Of a stretch of DNA of 64,000 nucleotides, positions 11,036 to 17,588 are shown piece by piece. A model generated the notes under the pieces. That model was not told where the DNA came from and did no database searches. It worked only from the letters and a program-made list of their open reading frames with translations. Position numbers and translations under genes: made by a program. This stretch comes from an uncultured Planctomycetaceae bacterium (lineage in GTDB: Bacteria; Planctomycetota; Planctomycetia; Planctomycetales; Planctomycetaceae), in the NCBI GenBank assembly GCA_937916515.1, contig CALFSX010000215.1, positions 1-64,000 of the forward strand, in the 5' to 3' direction. Every line of letters starts with the position of its first letter. Within the stretch, counting starts at the first letter, position 1.

Positions 11036-13582
11036 CTACTCGTTCCCACCAACCGTTGTTTCGTAATTAACTCCTTCCGGAGTCGGTACGGGAACGGCAA
11101 CTGTGGTTCCGAAGTCGCCTTCTGTTTTCGTCATCGAGTCTACGGCGACGAACGCGGTGAAGGCACTCATCAGGTTGTGAGCCAGTGCTGTTTCGAGAAC
11201 CGTCACCTTGATTTCATCAGCCGCTTCGGGTGATCGCGTGGCGACGTTCATCATGTCCATGATTTTCAGGCGTGCCCACACCGCGGCGACTCCCGCGTGC
11301 TTTTCTGAAGCATCCGTTTCGTCCAATGCGACTGAAAACGAAGCCGGTTCCATGGCGACTCGACCGTTGATTTTCACAACGCTCGGTTCACCCTTGAATC
11401 GACCAGTGACCACAACGGGACGTCCGACAATCAAGTCTGGCAACCGCTGAGGATAAACGTCGGCGACTTCCATGTTGCCCCAATCGATCTGCAGATCGGT
11501 CATCGCAGGATGGCTTATGCGTTGGTTGAATCGTTCCATGATCTCAGTCGCGTTATCGTTAAGGCTTAGATAAGCGACAGCTCCGCGACCAAGCATTGCC
11601 ATGCGATTCATCAGCATACGGTTCGGTGAACTGCCGACTCCAAAACTGAACACTCGCGATTCGCCCAGCTTTTGATGCATGGCGGTTAGAACCTGCTGTT
11701 CGTTGCCGATGTAACCATCCGTCATGAAGGACACCAGCCGGAATCGACCTTCATCGTGAGGAAAATCTAGAGCCGCTTTGATGCCTTCAATCATCTGAGT
11801 TCCGCCAGTGCTGTTCAGCGATTCAAGGTATGACAGGCCCAGCTTGATGTTTTCGTCGGTTGCCAGCAGAGGTTCGGCTCCCAGTTGAGAAGCGTTGTTC
11901 GAAAACTGAATAATCTGAAATGAGTCTCGCGGAGTCAGCGATTGCACCGCATGTCGAATCGCGGCTTTCGCCTGCTGCATGGGCTTGCCGTTCATGCTGC
12001 CGGAACAGTCCAGAACGAATACCATTTCCATTGGGCTGCGTTGTACCTGAGCCAGGTCAGCAGGGGGATACAGCATCATCGTGAAGTATTTGCCCTGCTT
12101 GTCTTCGTGAGTCAGCAAGGCCGACTTGATGTGAGTGCCGGCCACTTTGTAACGCAGGACAAAGTCTTTGTTGGGGATTGCGTCTCGTGGTGACAAAGTG
12201 ATGCTTCGTTGTGATTCAGTAACCTGCTTTTCTTCAATGGCGTGATTCACGCAGTGAACGTCTTCAATGTCGACTCCGGCAGAAATATTCAATGTGACAG
12301 ATACATCGTGGCCGCTACGTTCGTTGGGTGCCAGGTACTGCACTTCGGTGTCCTGTCCGCTGCTGCCGTGGTCTCCGCGAGCAACCGTCCCCACGCCGTT
12401 TGTTGTGGCAGCGGGATTGAATCGAGGACCAACAACCATTGGAAACACGAACTCGTAAGAACCATCGTCGTACTGCAACGTATTGAAGTAGCGAATGTGA
12501 ATGTCGATCTGCTTGCCGGGTTCGATGTTGGCGACCTTCTGAGTGAAGATGTTAGCTCGTTCCTGAGTCATCAACGCCGCAACGTGTCCTTGAGCTTTAG
12601 CGGCCGCATAGATCTTTTCTGCCTTCTCGCGTTCTCGAATGATGCCGCGAATCTTTCGATCGCCAACAGTCATCACAAATTCATTAACCGCCGCGTTGTC
12701 GGGCAGCGGGAAGACATAGACCGCTTCGATTTTGGAACTGTACGGGTTATGAAACTGCTGGTTGACGTCGACCGTGGCGATGTATCCGTCGATGCTGCCT
12801 TCCACGGAAGTATGCTTTAGAGGAACAGGAACCTGTTTTGTTTCGTTCGGCAAGGTTGCCATCAATGCTCCGCAACCGGGAACATCGGGGTTGGCCGTTC
12901 GTGATTGTGCATCAGCGGACTTAGCGATAATCCAAAGTTCTTCGCCTGGCTGAAGGTCAAACACGACTGGTGCCGCCGCAGGTTGGTTATCAGCAATGCT
13001 CTCTTTTATTTCCAGGGAACGTCCGCCTGAGCCTGCTGGTGAAGGCGTCGCGGCTGAAGGCTGTCCGCCACCGACTCCACCGCCGAAGCCGCCTGACTTT
13101 GCTTCCATTTCCTGCCCGGGAAGTATCATCCGGCGTGAAGCGACTGCTGGGGGTTCGTCGGACGGTTTCAGTTTTTCCTGCGTTCCTTTGCCATCGAGCT
13201 CACTTTTGATTGCTGAGTCGGCCGGCATGGCCAGCGAAGGTGCTATCGGTGCGTTTGGCTCAGGCGCTGCTTCCATTTTGCGAGATTCATCTGCCGACAA
13301 TTTTGGTAGATCAAGGCTGTCAGCTTGAGGCACAGATTGTTGAGCACCGAAGCCACCACCCATGTCTGCTTCTGCGGATTCATTTTCCCTGCTGCTTTCA
13401 CTGACCGCTGCATCAGGTGCTTCCGCTGCCTGGGGCGCAGCATTCTCTGCCGTTCCTTTCTCTGCCACGGCGGAGTCTGTGGACGCTTGCTCATTGCTTG
13501 CCCCGCAGCCGAGGTTGAACAAACACGCTGTCAGTATCATCAGAGACAGATTCAAGCAGAACGCACGTTGTATTGATTTCAT
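11036..13582 (-). CDS. VIT and von Willebrand factor A domain protein
   Basis: An 848-residue exported protein. The N-terminus (MKSIQRAFCLNLSLMILTACLFNLGC) is a signal peptide, possibly a lipoprotein signal with Cys26. Residues 27-200 are a low-complexity Ala/Glu/Pro/Gly linker. A VIT (inter-alpha-trypsin) domain follows at about 250-385 (VDVNQQFHNPYSSKIEAVYVFPLPDNAAV). The vWA domain starts near 515; its metal-dependent adhesion site is intact (DCSGSM, 525-530) with FMTDG later. Such proteins bind ligands through a metal ion and are common in planctomycetes with unknown roles. It is the last gene of a minus-strand run after the cohesin-like gene (88 bp gap), so it may be part of the sigma/dockerin module. 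Confidence 0.92.
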   Translation of the reverse strand: MKSIQRAFCLNLSLMILTACLFNLGCGASNEQASTDSAVAEKGTAENAAPQAAEAPDAAVSESSRENESAEADMGGGFGAQQSVPQADSLDLPKLSADESRKMEAAPEPNAPIAPSLAMPADSAIKSELDGKGTQEKLKPSDEPPAVASRRMILPGQEMEAKSGGFGGGVGGGQPSAATPSPAGSGGRSLEIKESIADNQPAAAPVVFDLQPGEELWIIAKSADAQSRTANPDVPGCGALMATLPNETKQVPVPLKHTSVEGSIDGYIATVDVNQQFHNPYSSKIEAVYVFPLPDNAAVNEFVMTVGDRKIRGIIREREKAEKIYAAAKAQGHVAALMTQERANIFTQKVANIEPGKQIDIHIRYFNTLQYDDGSYEFVFPMVVGPRFNPAATTNGVGTVARGDHGSSGQDTEVQYLAPNERSGHDVSVTLNISAGVDIEDVHCVNHAIEEKQVTESQRSITLSPRDAIPNKDFVLRYKVAGTHIKSALLTHEDKQGKYFTMMLYPPADLAQVQRSPMEMVFVLDCSGSMNGKPMQQAKAAIRHAVQSLTPRDSFQIIQFSNNASQLGAEPLLATDENIKLGLSYLESLNSTGGTQMIEGIKAALDFPHDEGRFRLVSFMTDGYIGNEQQVLTAMHQKLGESRVFSFGVGSSPNRMLMNRMAMLGRGAVAYLSLNDNATEIMERFNQRISHPAMTDLQIDWGNMEVADVYPQRLPDLIVGRPVVVTGRFKGEPSVVKINGRVAMEPASFSVALDETDASEKHAGVAAVWARLKIMDMMNVATRSPEAADEIKVTVLETALAHNLMSAFTAFVAVDSMTKTEGDFGTTVAVPVPTPEGVNYETTVGGNE

Positions 13583-13670
13583 GTTGTCGACCTTTCGATC
13601 AGATCAGATTCGAATGGGATGTTGGTGTATGTTTGGCGATCGCTATGGGGCGAAGCGTCACGATAACGGC

Positions 13671-14228
13671 TTACGCTCCGGCTTTGGCGATTTCAATTTG
13701 AGCCTGGATTCTCTGACCGTCGGTTGTGGCAGACGCTTTCAGTTCTGTGCGATACTGTTTGGCCCCGGAGCCCTGCAGTTGCACGTGGATTCTGGCCACT
13801 CGGCTGCGTCCGGATGGCAGATTGTCGCCCGTATTGAATGCAGCCAGGATGACTCGATTGTTGTTCATCGCTTTGGGATCGTAAAACGGAGGCTCTTCAA
13901 ACGCTGCGTGCTCGCCGCCTTCGATGCCGACAATTTCGACGCCCGGTGACTCACTTGCCAGTTCAAACTGATACGCGGCCAAAGCGTTCGAACCGGAATC
14001 GACAAACACGTCGATTGCTTCAAATCGAACGGCGTCTTCGTCAGCCACGTCAGGGCCAGCCAACTGAGTGATTGCCTGCTGAGGATTCGCTGTCGCGGTT
14101 TGCGGCTGGTCCTGAGCGTACGTCAGAGCCATCAGGCAAACGTCAAATCCGATCAGCAGCAGCCAGGCAATTGGCACGATGCTTCGCCGGTATGAGTTGC
14201 GGTTGATGGTTGTCTTCGAAACATTCAT
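13671..14228 (-). CDS. Exported cohesin-like protein
   Basis: A 185-residue protein. An AAGGGA box about 8 bases upstream favours the ATG at 14228 (MNVSKTTINR) over one at 14264. A membrane or signal segment lies at about 17-38 (IVPIAWLLLIGFDVCLMALTYA, possible AQD cleavage). The remainder has the pattern of a cohesin-type beta-sandwich: DVFVDSGSNALAAYQFELASESPGVEIV, then VILAAFNTGDNLPSG and SRVARIHVQL. Cohesins bind dockerin domains, and the upstream neighbour carries a dockerin. The cohesin assignment is from pattern only and is moderate; a general carbohydrate-binding-like fold is the alternative. It lies 56 bp downstream of the dockerin gene. Confidence 0.65.
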   Translation of the reverse strand: MNVSKTTINRNSYRRSIVPIAWLLLIGFDVCLMALTYAQDQPQTATANPQQAITQLAGPDVADEDAVRFEAIDVFVDSGSNALAAYQFELASESPGVEIVGIEGGEHAAFEEPPFYDPKAMNNNRVILAAFNTGDNLPSGRSRVARIHVQLQGSGAKQYRTELKASATTDGQRIQAQIEIAKAGA

Positions 14229-14284
14229 GTTTCGTTCCCTTTCAGGGTTATCTGAGATAAGCATTTAAGCTACGTGCCTGGCCG

Positions 14285-14794
14285 TCACAGCATGACCGCG
14301 TTCATGGCGATCAGGTTGATGTCTGTCTGGTCTGTCGAGCCGTCACCGTTTTGGTCCCACCGATTTGCCTGGCTGCTTCCCGACTTAACAGACCGAGCCA
14401 GAGCAAACGCATCAAGAATGTCGACTTGCCCATCTTGATCGACGTCGCTCGACACGAACGTTTGTTCCATTTCGCCAGCCGACGACTTGTCGTTCAGCGC
14501 CATGGATTGGGGGTGTGAAGCCGGTTCCTGAATGGTCTGTGGCAGCACAGCAAACAGCAGTACTGCGGCCGCGATTGTTCCGGTTGACCACGCCACCCAT
14601 CGGAATCGCTGGCGAGCTGGTGGCTTGATGTTTGGTCTTCTAATGCCGCTTAGGTGGGCGGCCGCGTCACTTAAGATCGCGTTTTCCACTGTTTGCGACA
14701 CGTTCAGCGGTGGCCCGCTTTGTCGACGGATCGCAGCCACAACTTCATGTGGTAACTGGTCTTCCGTCGATTCTGGTGTGTTTGAATCGTTCAT
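14285..14794 (-). CDS. Single-pass membrane protein with dockerin domain
   Basis: A 169-residue protein. Residues 1-65 are cytoplasmic in type (acidic, then Arg/Pro-rich), followed by one membrane helix at about 67-86 (VAWSTGTIAAAVLLFAVLP) and an outer domain. The outer part holds two dockerin calcium loops, residues 117-128 (DVDQDGQVDILD) and 147-158 (DQNGDGSTDQTD), the duplicated F-hand of type I dockerins. The layout (small cytosolic N-terminus, helix, outer sensor) and its place divergent from an ECF sigma gene resemble an anti-sigma factor, although no zinc-binding HxxxCxxC motif is seen. An anti-sigma role is therefore inference. Confidence 0.75.
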   Translation of the reverse strand: MNDSNTPESTEDQLPHEVVAAIRRQSGPPLNVSQTVENAILSDAAAHLSGIRRPNIKPPARQRFRWVAWSTGTIAAAVLLFAVLPQTIQEPASHPQSMALNDKSSAGEMEQTFVSSDVDQDGQVDILDAFALARSVKSGSSQANRWDQNGDGSTDQTDINLIAMNAVML

Positions 14795-15097
14795 GATTGG
14801 GGGTACCTCCGCCAGATTAAGTGTGGAGCAATTCGAATTGGTTCAAGCAATCTAATAAGAATCGTTGGAATCCGCACTGCTACGCTCAGAGCCGACTTAC
14901 GGAAGGTTCCATCGAGCCGCCTGCGAGTTGCTGGCAAAGGCTGTCCGTTCAAAGCTTGTGCGGCGAAAGTGTTATCGCACGGTTTTCGCAATAGGCGTTC
15001 AACTGATACTCTTTAGTACATCTTGTATCTTCAGCGTGTTCTGTGATCCCAATCATTCAGGAACTGTCTCGAATTAACTTCCCGATCTGCGTCCAAT
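14795..15097. other. Divergent promoter region, ECF cluster
   Basis: About 400 bp separate the dockerin gene from the ECF sigma gene. Promoters for both directions should lie here. Apart from the strong hairpin at 15098-15156, no recognisable operator was found; GGGGGTACCTCC just upstream of the dockerin start reads on the minus strand as GGAGGTACCCCC, a good ribosome binding site. Confidence 0.4.
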
Positions 15098-15156
15098 GTA
15101 GGGCCGGTTCCTACCGGCCACTGTTCGCGGTGTCGGCCGGTGGGAACCGGCCCTAC
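15098..15156. repeat. Long GC-rich inverted repeat upstream of sigma gene
   Basis: Left arm at 15098-15119 (starting GTAGGGCCGGTTCC) and right arm at 15135-15156 (ending GGAACCGGCCCTAC) pair almost perfectly over 22 bases, with a loop of about 15. It ends 45 bp before the sigma ATG, so it lies in the likely leader or promoter. It may be a mobile palindromic repeat or a regulatory hairpin. Confidence 0.8.
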
Positions 15157-15201
15157 GGAGGTTGTTTCAGGACTGTTCCTAAGCTGTTTAAGCCTTCCTG
15201 A

Positions 15202-15753
15202 ATGTCTGCATCTGCTGACAATTCGACCGATCTGCAACTGGTGGCCGCAATTAACGACGGCGATCAGGAAGCATTCGCAACGCTGTACCATCGCCACAAA
15301 GATTGGGTGGTGAATCTGGCTTTTCGATTCACCGGAAACCATGACGATGCTCAGGATGTCACTCAGGAAACGTTTGCCTACCTTGTTCGAAAGTTCCCCG
15401 GCTTCGAACTGACGGCTCAGATGACCACGTTTCTGTATCCTGCCGTTCGTAACCTGTCGATTGCCGCAAGAAAGAAGCGACAGCGATCAACCAGCAGCGA
15501 TGAGAACCTCGATCTGTTTCCCGAAGTCCCTTCTGAGGAATCAGCCGATCGCAGTGAAATGGCAACTGTGCTGGGTTCGCTATCGGACGCTCATAAAGAA
15601 ATCCTGCTGATGCGATTTGTCGATGACATGACGCAACCAGAAATCGCGGCGGCCCTTGAGCTGCCTCTGGGCACTGTGAAGTCACGACTGCACCACGCCA
15701 TTCAAGCCGTAAAGAACTCACCAGCAATCGCCGCTTTTCTGTCTGGTGGATGA
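15202..15753 (+). CDS. ECF-type RNA polymerase sigma factor
   Basis: A 183-residue group IV sigma-70 factor. Region 2 is at about 24-95 (LYHRHKDWVVNLAFRFTGNHDDAQDVTQETFAYLVRKFPGF), with the DAQDVTQETF core that binds the polymerase clamp and -10 element. Region 4 is at about 125-175 (LGSLSDAHKEILLMRFVDDMTQPEIAAALELPLGTVKSRLHHAI), with an intact helix-turn-helix. No extra C-terminal domain. It is divergent from the dockerin membrane protein, its probable regulator. The 3' half is duplicated 1.75 kb downstream. Confidence 0.95.
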   Translation: MSASADNSTDLQLVAAINDGDQEAFATLYHRHKDWVVNLAFRFTGNHDDAQDVTQETFAYLVRKFPGFELTAQMTTFLYPAVRNLSIAARKKRQRSTSSDENLDLFPEVPSEESADRSEMATVLGSLSDAHKEILLMRFVDDMTQPEIAAALELPLGTVKSRLHHAIQAVKNSPAIAAFLSGG

Positions 15754-16042: not shown

Positions 16043-17200
16043 ATGAAGACCGTTCCATTGTTTCTGGCCATTCTTCTTTTGTCGCCCGGTACACACGCTC
16101 AAAACCGCGTACAGCCGGAATTGTTTGACGTGCCGGACATCCGTTCGTCGTGGGACGATCTCACACAGGGTCTCAGTTCCAAAGATGACTGGCTAAAGCG
16201 GCGAGTCGTGTTGAAGCAGCGTTATCTGGACCTGTTGCGTGATCAGCACAAGCCGGAAAAGCCAGCCCTGGATTTGATCGTCCACGAAGATGTCGTGGTG
16301 GAAAATCTGTATCGTCGACAGTTGATCAGCTACGCCGTCGAATCCAAGGAACGAGCACACGCGTATCTTGGGATCCCGCTACAACTGACTGGCAAGGCTC
16401 CTGCAATCGTTGCCCTGCATGGCACTTATCAGTACGGCAAGAAACAGGCGGCGGGACTCATCGACAATCCGGACAAGGCGTATCTCGATCATCTTTGCCG
16501 CCGGGGCTTCGTCGTGATTGCCCCCGAGCACTTCGTCTCCGGTCATCGAATCCCTGCGGAAGGTCCCTACGAAACGGGGGCTTTTTACAAGAAACATCCC
16601 GAATGGACGGCTGTCGGGAAATTCACCTACGAGCATTCCATCGCGATCGATGTCCTGCAGAGTCTTGAGCAGGTCGATGGTGAACGCATCGGCGCACTGG
16701 GGCATTCGCTGGGTGGCCATGGCACATTCTTTTTGGCGGCTTATGACGAACGCATCAAAGCGGCGGCGTGTAATTGCGCAGCGGCGTTTTTTCGGCACAA
16801 TCCCACGGTCGAAGCCTGGTCGCGAGATCGCTGGTATGTCTATTTCAAGCCGATCCGTGAGGGGCTTATGAAGGGCGAGATGCCGCCGATCGATTTTCAC
16901 GAAATCATTTCGCTGATTGCCCCTCGTGCCTTTCTGGATGTTTCGGCCCTAAACGACGGACATGGTCCCACTCAAAAGCAGCGACTGCTGATGCTGATGA
17001 AAATCATGGAAGTTTACGAACTAAACGACGCCCCACAAAACTTCGGCTTCTACGTGCACGGTCGAGGACATTCAGTCGCTCACGAGTCGCGTCAGTTAAT
17101 CTACGGCTGGATGGACACCCATTTGAAACCAGCGGAAGCCACTCAAACCCGACTTGTCGTACCTGCACCAGAGCTTCCCATTTCTTCCGAGGCGAAGTGA
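16043..17200 (+). CDS. Secreted alpha/beta hydrolase (acetyl-esterase-like)
   Basis: A 385-residue exported hydrolase with a signal peptide (MKTVPLFLAILLLSPGTHAQ, cleavage near residue 20). The nucleophile elbow is GHSLGGHG with Ser222; Asp305 in SALNDGHG and His343 in HGRGHSVAHE complete a plausible triad, and VALHGTYQYGK forms the oxyanion region. It belongs to the dienelactone hydrolase/acetyl-xylan-esterase-like group, so deacetylation of polysaccharide or ester cleavage in the envelope is likely. It lies alone between the two copies of a duplicated sigma segment and its stop is 12 bp before copy 2, which suggests it arrived or was rearranged with that duplication. Confidence 0.87.
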   Translation: MKTVPLFLAILLLSPGTHAQNRVQPELFDVPDIRSSWDDLTQGLSSKDDWLKRRVVLKQRYLDLLRDQHKPEKPALDLIVHEDVVVENLYRRQLISYAVESKERAHAYLGIPLQLTGKAPAIVALHGTYQYGKKQAAGLIDNPDKAYLDHLCRRGFVVIAPEHFVSGHRIPAEGPYETGAFYKKHPEWTAVGKFTYEHSIAIDVLQSLEQVDGERIGALGHSLGGHGTFFLAAYDERIKAAACNCAAAFFRHNPTVEAWSRDRWYVYFKPIREGLMKGEMPPIDFHEIISLIAPRAFLDVSALNDGHGPTQKQRLLMLMKIMEVYELNDAPQNFGFYVHGRGHSVAHESRQLIYGWMDTHLKPAEATQTRLVVPAPELPISSEAK

Positions 17201-17211
17201 GAAGGCCCATT

Positions 17212-17588
17212 CCGCAAGAAAGAAGCGACAGCGATTAACCTGCAGCGATGAGAACCGCGACCTGTTTCCCGAAGTCCGCTCTGAGGAATCAGCCGATCGC
17301 AATGAAATGGCAACCGTGCTGGGTTCGCTATCGCATGCTCATAAAGAAATTCTGCTGATGCGATTTGTCGATGACATGACGCAACCAGAAATCGCTGCGG
17401 CGCTTGAACTGCCTCTGCGAACCGTTAAGTCACCATTGCAGCACGCCGTTCGAGCCGTAAAGAACTCACCAGCAATCGCCACTTTCTGTCTGATGGATGA
17501 TTGTCGCCCAAGTAGTGAGTCTTGCCGGTTGGCGACTTCCGCCGATCAATTCTTGAGAAAACTGGGGTTTGCGGGTAAGCAGAGTTGA
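17212..17588 (+). pseudogene. Truncated duplicate of the ECF sigma factor
   Basis: This copy encodes only the linker and region 4 of the sigma factor at 15202; region 2 is absent, and the open frame begins inside the hydrolase gene (ATG or TTG near 17154) with about 20 unrelated residues. Substitutions hit the recognition helix: LPLGTVKSRLHHAI becomes LPLRTVKSPLQHAV, with a proline in the helix. The C-terminus differs because of a small indel, giving a longer tail. It cannot work as a normal sigma factor. It could in principle make a region-4-only protein, but no ribosome binding site or promoter supports expression. Confidence 0.8.

Follow-up and report, generated by a model that had tools for sequence, protein, structure and literature searches.

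Cohesin and dockerin domains form a molecular lock familiar from cellulose-degrading machines. What might such a lock do beside the gene for a sigma factor? The question is raised by positions 11036–15753 of a 64,000-nucleotide stretch of DNA, here called the window, from an uncultured Planctomycetaceae bacterium (assembly GCA_937916515.1, contig CALFSX010000215.1, positions 1–64,000). In this planctomycete genome of 8.3 Mb, the gene for an extracytoplasmic function (ECF) sigma factor diverges from three minus-strand genes, which encode a membrane protein with a dockerin domain, an exported cohesin-fold protein, and a VIT/vWA lipoprotein-like protein. An earlier note on this DNA, made from its letters alone, had read the sigma gene as intact, and all four open reading frames are. 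We put the probability that they form one envelope-sensing sigma switch, operating through a dockerin–cohesin tether, at about 60%.

A conserved four-gene module

The four genes constitute a real and widespread module. A cohesin profile, together with further genomes, gave 62 non-redundant loci, the window included. The genes keep one order in these loci: the dockerin gene lies beside the cohesin gene in 60, the sigma gene is adjacent in 53, and a VIT gene is detected in 54. Both loci that lack an adjoining dockerin gene sit at contig edges. The cohesin profile retrieved 40 loci from public genomes, nearly all with these four genes in unchanged order. These loci come from Planctomycetota (Planctomycetia and Phycisphaerae), Verrucomicrobiota, Krumholzibacteriota, Fermentibacteria, and one contig labelled Acidobacteria, whose locus (L069) is nearly identical to L071. 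Within the window's own family, the dockerin protein occurs in 15 other genomes, 12 of which carry an adjacent divergent sigma gene, then the cohesin gene and mostly a VIT gene. Conservation of the neighbourhood in relatives was a check proposed in the earlier note; the four-gene order is kept in dozens of genomes, which places the arrangement far beyond chance.

The module occurs patchily, in 25 of 392 Planctomycetota sampled and in 3 of 388 Verrucomicrobiota sampled. Because the sigma gene outside the window's family usually points the same way as the others and lies directly upstream, its divergent orientation in the window is probably a derived rearrangement. In three close relatives the sigma gene is not adjacent to the other genes, and each of these genomes holds a 74–80% identical orthologue elsewhere. 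The sigma tree agrees with those of the cohesin (rho 0.61) and the dockerin protein (rho 0.59; 0 of 200 permutations); this agreement between sequence trees speaks for common inheritance and not for contact. No fifth conserved gene was found: the recovered clusters are frames antisense to the four genes or overlapping them, or are confined to a few relatives.

The sigma factor and its putative antagonist

The sigma factor gene (15202–15753, plus strand) encodes a 183-amino-acid (aa) protein with matches to Sigma70_r2 (4.9e-13) and Sigma70_r4 (3.6e-13) in Pfam, both above cut-off, and to TIGR02937 (2.5e-24). A short protein with only sigma regions 2 and 4, it is of the ECF type, and orthologues in the same module are 50–79% identical. 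A degenerate relic of a second sigma gene copy (17190–17486, plus strand) stands directly after an alpha/beta hydrolase gene (16043–17200). The relic is 80% identical to residues 81–179, and its recognition helix reads RTVKSPLQHA in place of GTVKSRLHHA.

Does the module encode a protein that could restrain this sigma factor? The dockerin gene (14285–14794, minus strand) encodes 169 aa, comprising cytoplasmic residues 1–65 (14600–14794), a hydrophobic transmembrane segment at residues 66–84 (14543–14599), and a dockerin domain predicted to lie in the periplasm (14288–14446). A hydrophobic stretch likewise precedes the dockerin in 60 of 60 homologues. The layout agrees with the single-pass protein, 65-residue cytoplasmic N-terminus and two perfect dockerin loops described before: both loops are complete (D117-V-D-Q-D-G-Q-V-D-I-L-D128 and D147-Q-N-G-D-G-S-T-D-Q-T-D158) and Dockerin_1 matches at 9.5e-8. 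The two F-hand calcium loops are those of a type I dockerin, PDB dockerins match both by profile and by fold, and the domain has a conserved DILDAFALAR and AVxL end.

Homology gives good support to the view that the dockerin protein is the sigma factor's antagonist, i.e. an anti-sigma factor, as the earlier note had suggested. The window N-terminus alone has weak anti-sigma similarity (E 0.033); the assignment follows from six homologues in the same gene order (L140, L141, L152, L153, L154 and L156) that carry the classical Hx3Cx2C motif. In L152, zf-HC2 (1.7e-9) and Dockerin_1 (7.2e-9) match one and the same protein. The NCBIfam 'anti-sigma factor' model matches L140 at 1.4e-8 and L141 at 3.2e-11 (NF052375), both under its naming cut-off, and weakly matches 21 of 34 zinc-less members. 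The zinc-bearing homologues are assigned to anti-sigma factors by profile only.

What kind of anti-sigma factor might this be? The module's protein family is homologous to the class I anti-sigma domain (ASDI). In the zinc-bearing homologues, Hx3Cx2C is mostly followed by a 'VP..vD.aiL..A' segment, to which the second helix of the window N-terminus is equivalent. The AlphaFold model of the window protein contains, fairly to well predicted, cytoplasmic helices at residues 16–25 and 34–50, then the membrane segment and the dockerin; in place of the four helices of an ASDI (a bundle of three plus helix 4), it shows only these two on the cytoplasmic side. The most likely origin of the window protein is a class I anti-sigma factor that lost its zinc motif together with helices 2–3. 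The earlier note had correctly seen that the zinc motif is absent, the window copy being shortened and zinc-less. Its further idea that the protein may define a new type was rejected in view of the classical Hx3Cx2C of the homologues. Zinc is absent from ∼44% of class I anti-sigma domains (PMC7406223), and its absence alone is therefore not novel.

The cohesin-fold protein and its probable pairing with the dockerin

The next gene (13671–14228, minus strand) encodes an exported protein of 185 aa with a signal peptide at residues ∼1–38. Its cohesin homology is visible from the fold only and not from sequence search: the product has no sequence match in Pfam, NCBIfam or the PDB, and the Cohesin profile (PF00963) does not match the window protein and finds 1 of 41 homologues, at 0.0095. 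The AlphaFold model, computed from an alignment of 41 homologues, has a predicted local distance difference test (pLDDT) score of 93 and a predicted template modelling (pTM) score of 0.86, and its predicted structure is the nine-stranded cohesin jelly-roll. The best Foldseek matches to this model are cohesins. Moreover, the first 47 rows from VIA-align are all cohesins, with Z from 7.1 to 10.3 (the highest over 120 residues); another fold first appears at 6.6. The cohesin-like assignment made earlier from the letters is thus borne out by the predicted fold. A segment, VGIEGGEHxAFxxPPYYDPxAM, is nearly invariant among the homologues and is a candidate functional surface.

Is the neighbouring dockerin the partner of this cohesin? 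Support for the pairing is indirect and comes from the adjacency in 60 of 62 loci and from one gene fusion. The window's dockerin is the only Dockerin_1 match found in its genome; its partner should therefore be nearby, and the adjoining cohesin is the evident candidate. In locus L138 (G170:C326, 2896–4059, plus strand), a single 388-codon frame encodes anti-sigma factor, membrane helix, dockerin, and cohesin. Its cohesin part has lost the signal peptide, and the frame therefore looks like a true fusion and not like read-through. We infer, as the earlier note did, that dockerin–cohesin binding could control release of the sigma factor, an idea strengthened by the L138 fusion and by the sole genomic dockerin. 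Other module-bearing genomes have 3 to 55 dockerin matches each, and the module is therefore independent of the remaining dockerin repertoire. A cellulosome-like assembly was rejected for the window's genome, which has one dockerin and no cohesin profile match.

The VIT/vWA protein and a possible tether across the periplasm

The last gene (11036–13582, minus strand) encodes an 848 aa lipoprotein-like protein with VIT (2e-36) and vWA (6.2e-17) domains. The DCSGSM sequence noted earlier is present, so the metal ion-dependent adhesion site (MIDAS) is intact. The protein also matches TIGR03788 (9.5e-156, below that family's cut-off). Its C-terminal tail VPVPxPEGVxYxTTV, VAVPVPVPEGVRYETTV (11036–11110, minus strand, in the window; L048–L087), is kept from Planctomycetota to Krumholzibacteriota and is a possible docking peptide.

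Where might this protein reside? The window protein has an atypical lipobox (..LFNLGC), but its relatives have canonical ones. A lipobox-like site without aspartate at +2 occurs in the VIT protein of 37 loci, and the cohesin there has a plain signal peptide. In E. coli, lipoproteins without aspartate at +2 go to the outer membrane, a rule drawn from that species and not from planctomycetes. By this rule, the VIT protein points to the outer membrane.

Loci that lack the VIT gene suggest what it may do. In L152–L154 no VIT gene stands beside the cohesin gene; here it is the cohesin itself that bears a canonical lipobox (LAGC or FAGC). Moreover, the linker between membrane and dockerin is 116–165 aa long in the four VIT-less loci, compared with a median of 19 where VIT is present (n=52, maximum 104); p is ∼0.01 when the VIT-less loci are collapsed to two lineages. 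These long linkers, with a lipidated cohesin in three of the four loci, suggest a trans-envelope tether. Our reading is that VIT may be an interchangeable distal anchor or spacer of this tether. Strict complementarity of lipobox and VIT was considered and dropped, the fourth VIT-less locus (L045) being an exception. Further VIT/vWA paralogues exist in the genomes of L152, L153 and L154 and could supply a partner from another site; the genome of L045 (G098) has none close. The zinc-bearing anti-sigma protein of L152 (2029–3108, plus strand) has a predicted periplasmic coiled-coil of ∼130 residues before its dockerin, with the lipidated cohesin adjoining and no adjacent VIT.

A shared promoter-like motif

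A promoter-like motif, TGAACC-N16-CACTTAA, lies upstream of the dockerin gene (14817–14845, minus strand), with a fixed spacer conserved in relatives. Searched as TGAAC[CG]-N16-[CG][AG]CT[TGA][AC]A, it is found before the dockerin gene in 19 of 60 loci, compared with a mean of 0.02 in shuffled regions, and essentially at spacer 16 only; a relaxed form is found at the same spacing in 29 of 60. Loci with the motif ahead of the operon come from two phyla. The same motif lies upstream of the sigma gene in six loci (five Verrucomicrobiota and L069), and in several of these a second copy, starting at the stop codon of the sigma gene, stands before the dockerin gene. In close relatives the strict motif is nearly confined, genome-wide, to the operon of the module. 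This co-occurrence suggests that the sigma factor reads the TGAACC-N16-CACTTAA promoter.

A wider regulon was also considered and rejected: in close relatives the strict motif gives essentially the operon only, and the extra sites in genome G000 look like chance. Additional strict-motif sites also occur in G016, G017 and G020. A second copy lies upstream of an unlinked lipoprotein-like frame at L123 (G020:C467, 523–551, minus strand), and L120 (G016:C73) has a lone site resembling the motif. In the window itself, an inverted repeat, GGGCCGGTTCCTACCGGCC / GGCCGGTGGGAACCGGCCC, occupies approximately 15095–15165 between the divergent genes.

A model for the proposed switch and its alternatives

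How might these parts work together? Computation shows that the four genes are conserved as a set, that one encodes a cohesin fold and another a dockerin protein with anti-sigma homology, that a natural fusion exists and that a promoter motif is shared; beyond this, we infer every binding step, the outer-membrane location, the direction of the signal, the proteolysis, and the reading of this promoter by the sigma factor. The dockerin protein, through its short cytoplasmic N-terminus, would hold the ECF sigma factor at the inner membrane. Across the membrane, the dockerin would bind the exported cohesin protein, very probably with calcium, and coupling of this pair to the VIT/vWA lipoprotein, which probably sits in the outer membrane, would complete a tether that spans the periplasm. 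The tethered state would protect the anti-sigma factor. Should the tether be lost, because a ligand occupies the metal site of the vWA domain, calcium is lost or the envelope is damaged, the anti-sigma factor would be cleaved or relax and so free the sigma factor. The latter would then transcribe the dockerin–cohesin–VIT operon from TGAACC-N16-CACTTAA, renewing its own inhibitor, and in Verrucomicrobiota it would transcribe its own gene from this motif as well. More tentatively, and at somewhat less than even odds, we conjecture that the cohesin–dockerin pair acts as the link that can be released in a trans-envelope tether, that the integrity of this tether directly sets the activity of the ECF sigma factor, and that signalling of this class is present in at least four phyla.

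Several observations weigh against an envelope-sensing switch. No more than two helices are predicted for the short N-terminus, so that inhibition by it is not certain. The metal site is missing from a few VIT proteins. The VIT-less loci amount to about two independent lineages; among these loci, L045 combines a 139-residue linker with a cohesin that has no lipobox. The exact promoter motif is absent from about two thirds of the loci. A GGAACTT-N14-CGTC-like sequence, spotted by eye, lies upstream of the divergent sigma gene in the window's relatives; this regularly spaced sequence is absent from the window. Finally, covariation between the sigma factor and the anti-sigma N-terminus is no higher than in an extracellular dockerin control, at low depth (effective number of sequences 33). 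The covariation result would also fit a dockerin protein that does not regulate this sigma factor, the synteny being no more than that of an old operon, as would the unlinked sigma gene in at least three relatives. However, gene order is kept across several phyla, the unlinked sigma gene is still present in the same genomes, homologues carry the anti-sigma motif, and L138 has the gene fusion; we regard mere neighbourhood as very improbable.

Two further alternatives were weighed. The dockerin protein might mainly anchor a cohesin–VIT/vWA complex that serves adhesion or envelope structure, with the sigma factor setting its amount by autoregulation and without sensing. Such a role would suit the position of the promoter motif before the structural genes and its near restriction to them in close relatives. 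It would also suit the VIT/vWA protein, which is the largest of the envelope parts and is well conserved. Nonetheless, the anti-sigma homology of the anchor implies feedback of its membrane state on the sigma factor, and we consider pure assembly unlikely, if the least so of these alternatives. Displacement is a weaker candidate still. Here, the cohesin would not form a tether but hold the anti-sigma factor active (or mark its own level), secreted dockerin proteins would compete for it, and the switch would report the dockerin load of the envelope. Some module genomes do encode many dockerin proteins (55 matches in one member of the Phycisphaerae and 11 in Krumholzibacteriota), but the window's genome keeps the module though no other dockerin was found in it, and both the VIT/vWA gene and the fused anti-sigma–dockerin–cohesin protein of L138 would be left unexplained.

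Relation to known systems

Is an envelope-sensing switch of this kind related to a known signalling system? In FecA-FecR-FecI and related cell-surface signalling systems, an outer-membrane partner contacts the single-pass anti-sigma factor of an ECF sigma factor across the periplasm. In Pseudomonas, the transducer shields the anti-sigma factor from proteolysis in the absence of signal (PMC11637429). The module resembles this arrangement but would use a cohesin–dockerin contact, and its presumed outer-membrane part is the VIT/vWA lipoprotein. The membrane protein has no FecR domain, and neither a TonB-dependent transducer among the four genes nor a further conserved neighbour was found. Cell-surface signalling thus appears to be the nearest working analogy and not a family that includes the module.

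In cellulosome-forming clostridia, which use cohesins and dockerins too, the SigI/RsgI systems likewise have an anti-sigma factor in the membrane whose binding domain lies outside the cell (PMC3413522, PMC11557425). However, the RsgI ectodomains described bind polysaccharide (carbohydrate-binding modules, glycoside hydrolases, PA14), with no dockerin listed among them and no paired cohesin gene. The window's sigma factor is instead of the ECF type and the ectodomain is a dockerin, so that SigI/RsgI would be the nearest analogy in a cohesin/dockerin context, short of membership. With class I anti-sigma factors the module shares homologues that have Hx3Cx2C, a helix-4-like segment, and one membrane helix; the window protein, in contrast, keeps about two helices, lacks the zinc motif, and bears a dockerin.

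The extracellular parts have relatives of their own. The Clostridium perfringens NagJ-NagH pair has the same folds, the module's cohesin matching 2jh2 and 2vo8 and its dockerin matching 2ozn. Planctomycete cohesin and dockerin modules without a cellulose role have been reported, with protease assembly proposed, as part of a hypothetical 'planctosome' in freshwater Phycisphaerae (PMC6461901). Cellulosomal and non-cellulosomal pairs such as NagJ-NagH and those of the 'planctosome' assemble enzymes, whereas the module's pair would sit in a transcription switch. The VIT and vWA architecture is that of TIGR03788, a marine proteobacterial sortase target, but the module's VIT/vWA relatives mostly have a lipobox and their genomic partner is the sigma module. 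The literature searched, which covered few subscription journals, contains no description of the module or of a cohesin/dockerin–sigma link, and a prior description is possible.

For the non-cellulosomal cohesins and dockerins of planctomycetes and their relatives, which have had no established role, the module would provide a directly testable one. It would add an anti-sigma factor with a protein-docking ectodomain, together with a conserved candidate promoter. The module is small and self-contained and could therefore be reconstituted, and it may serve as a compact model of how poorly understood envelopes report to transcription.

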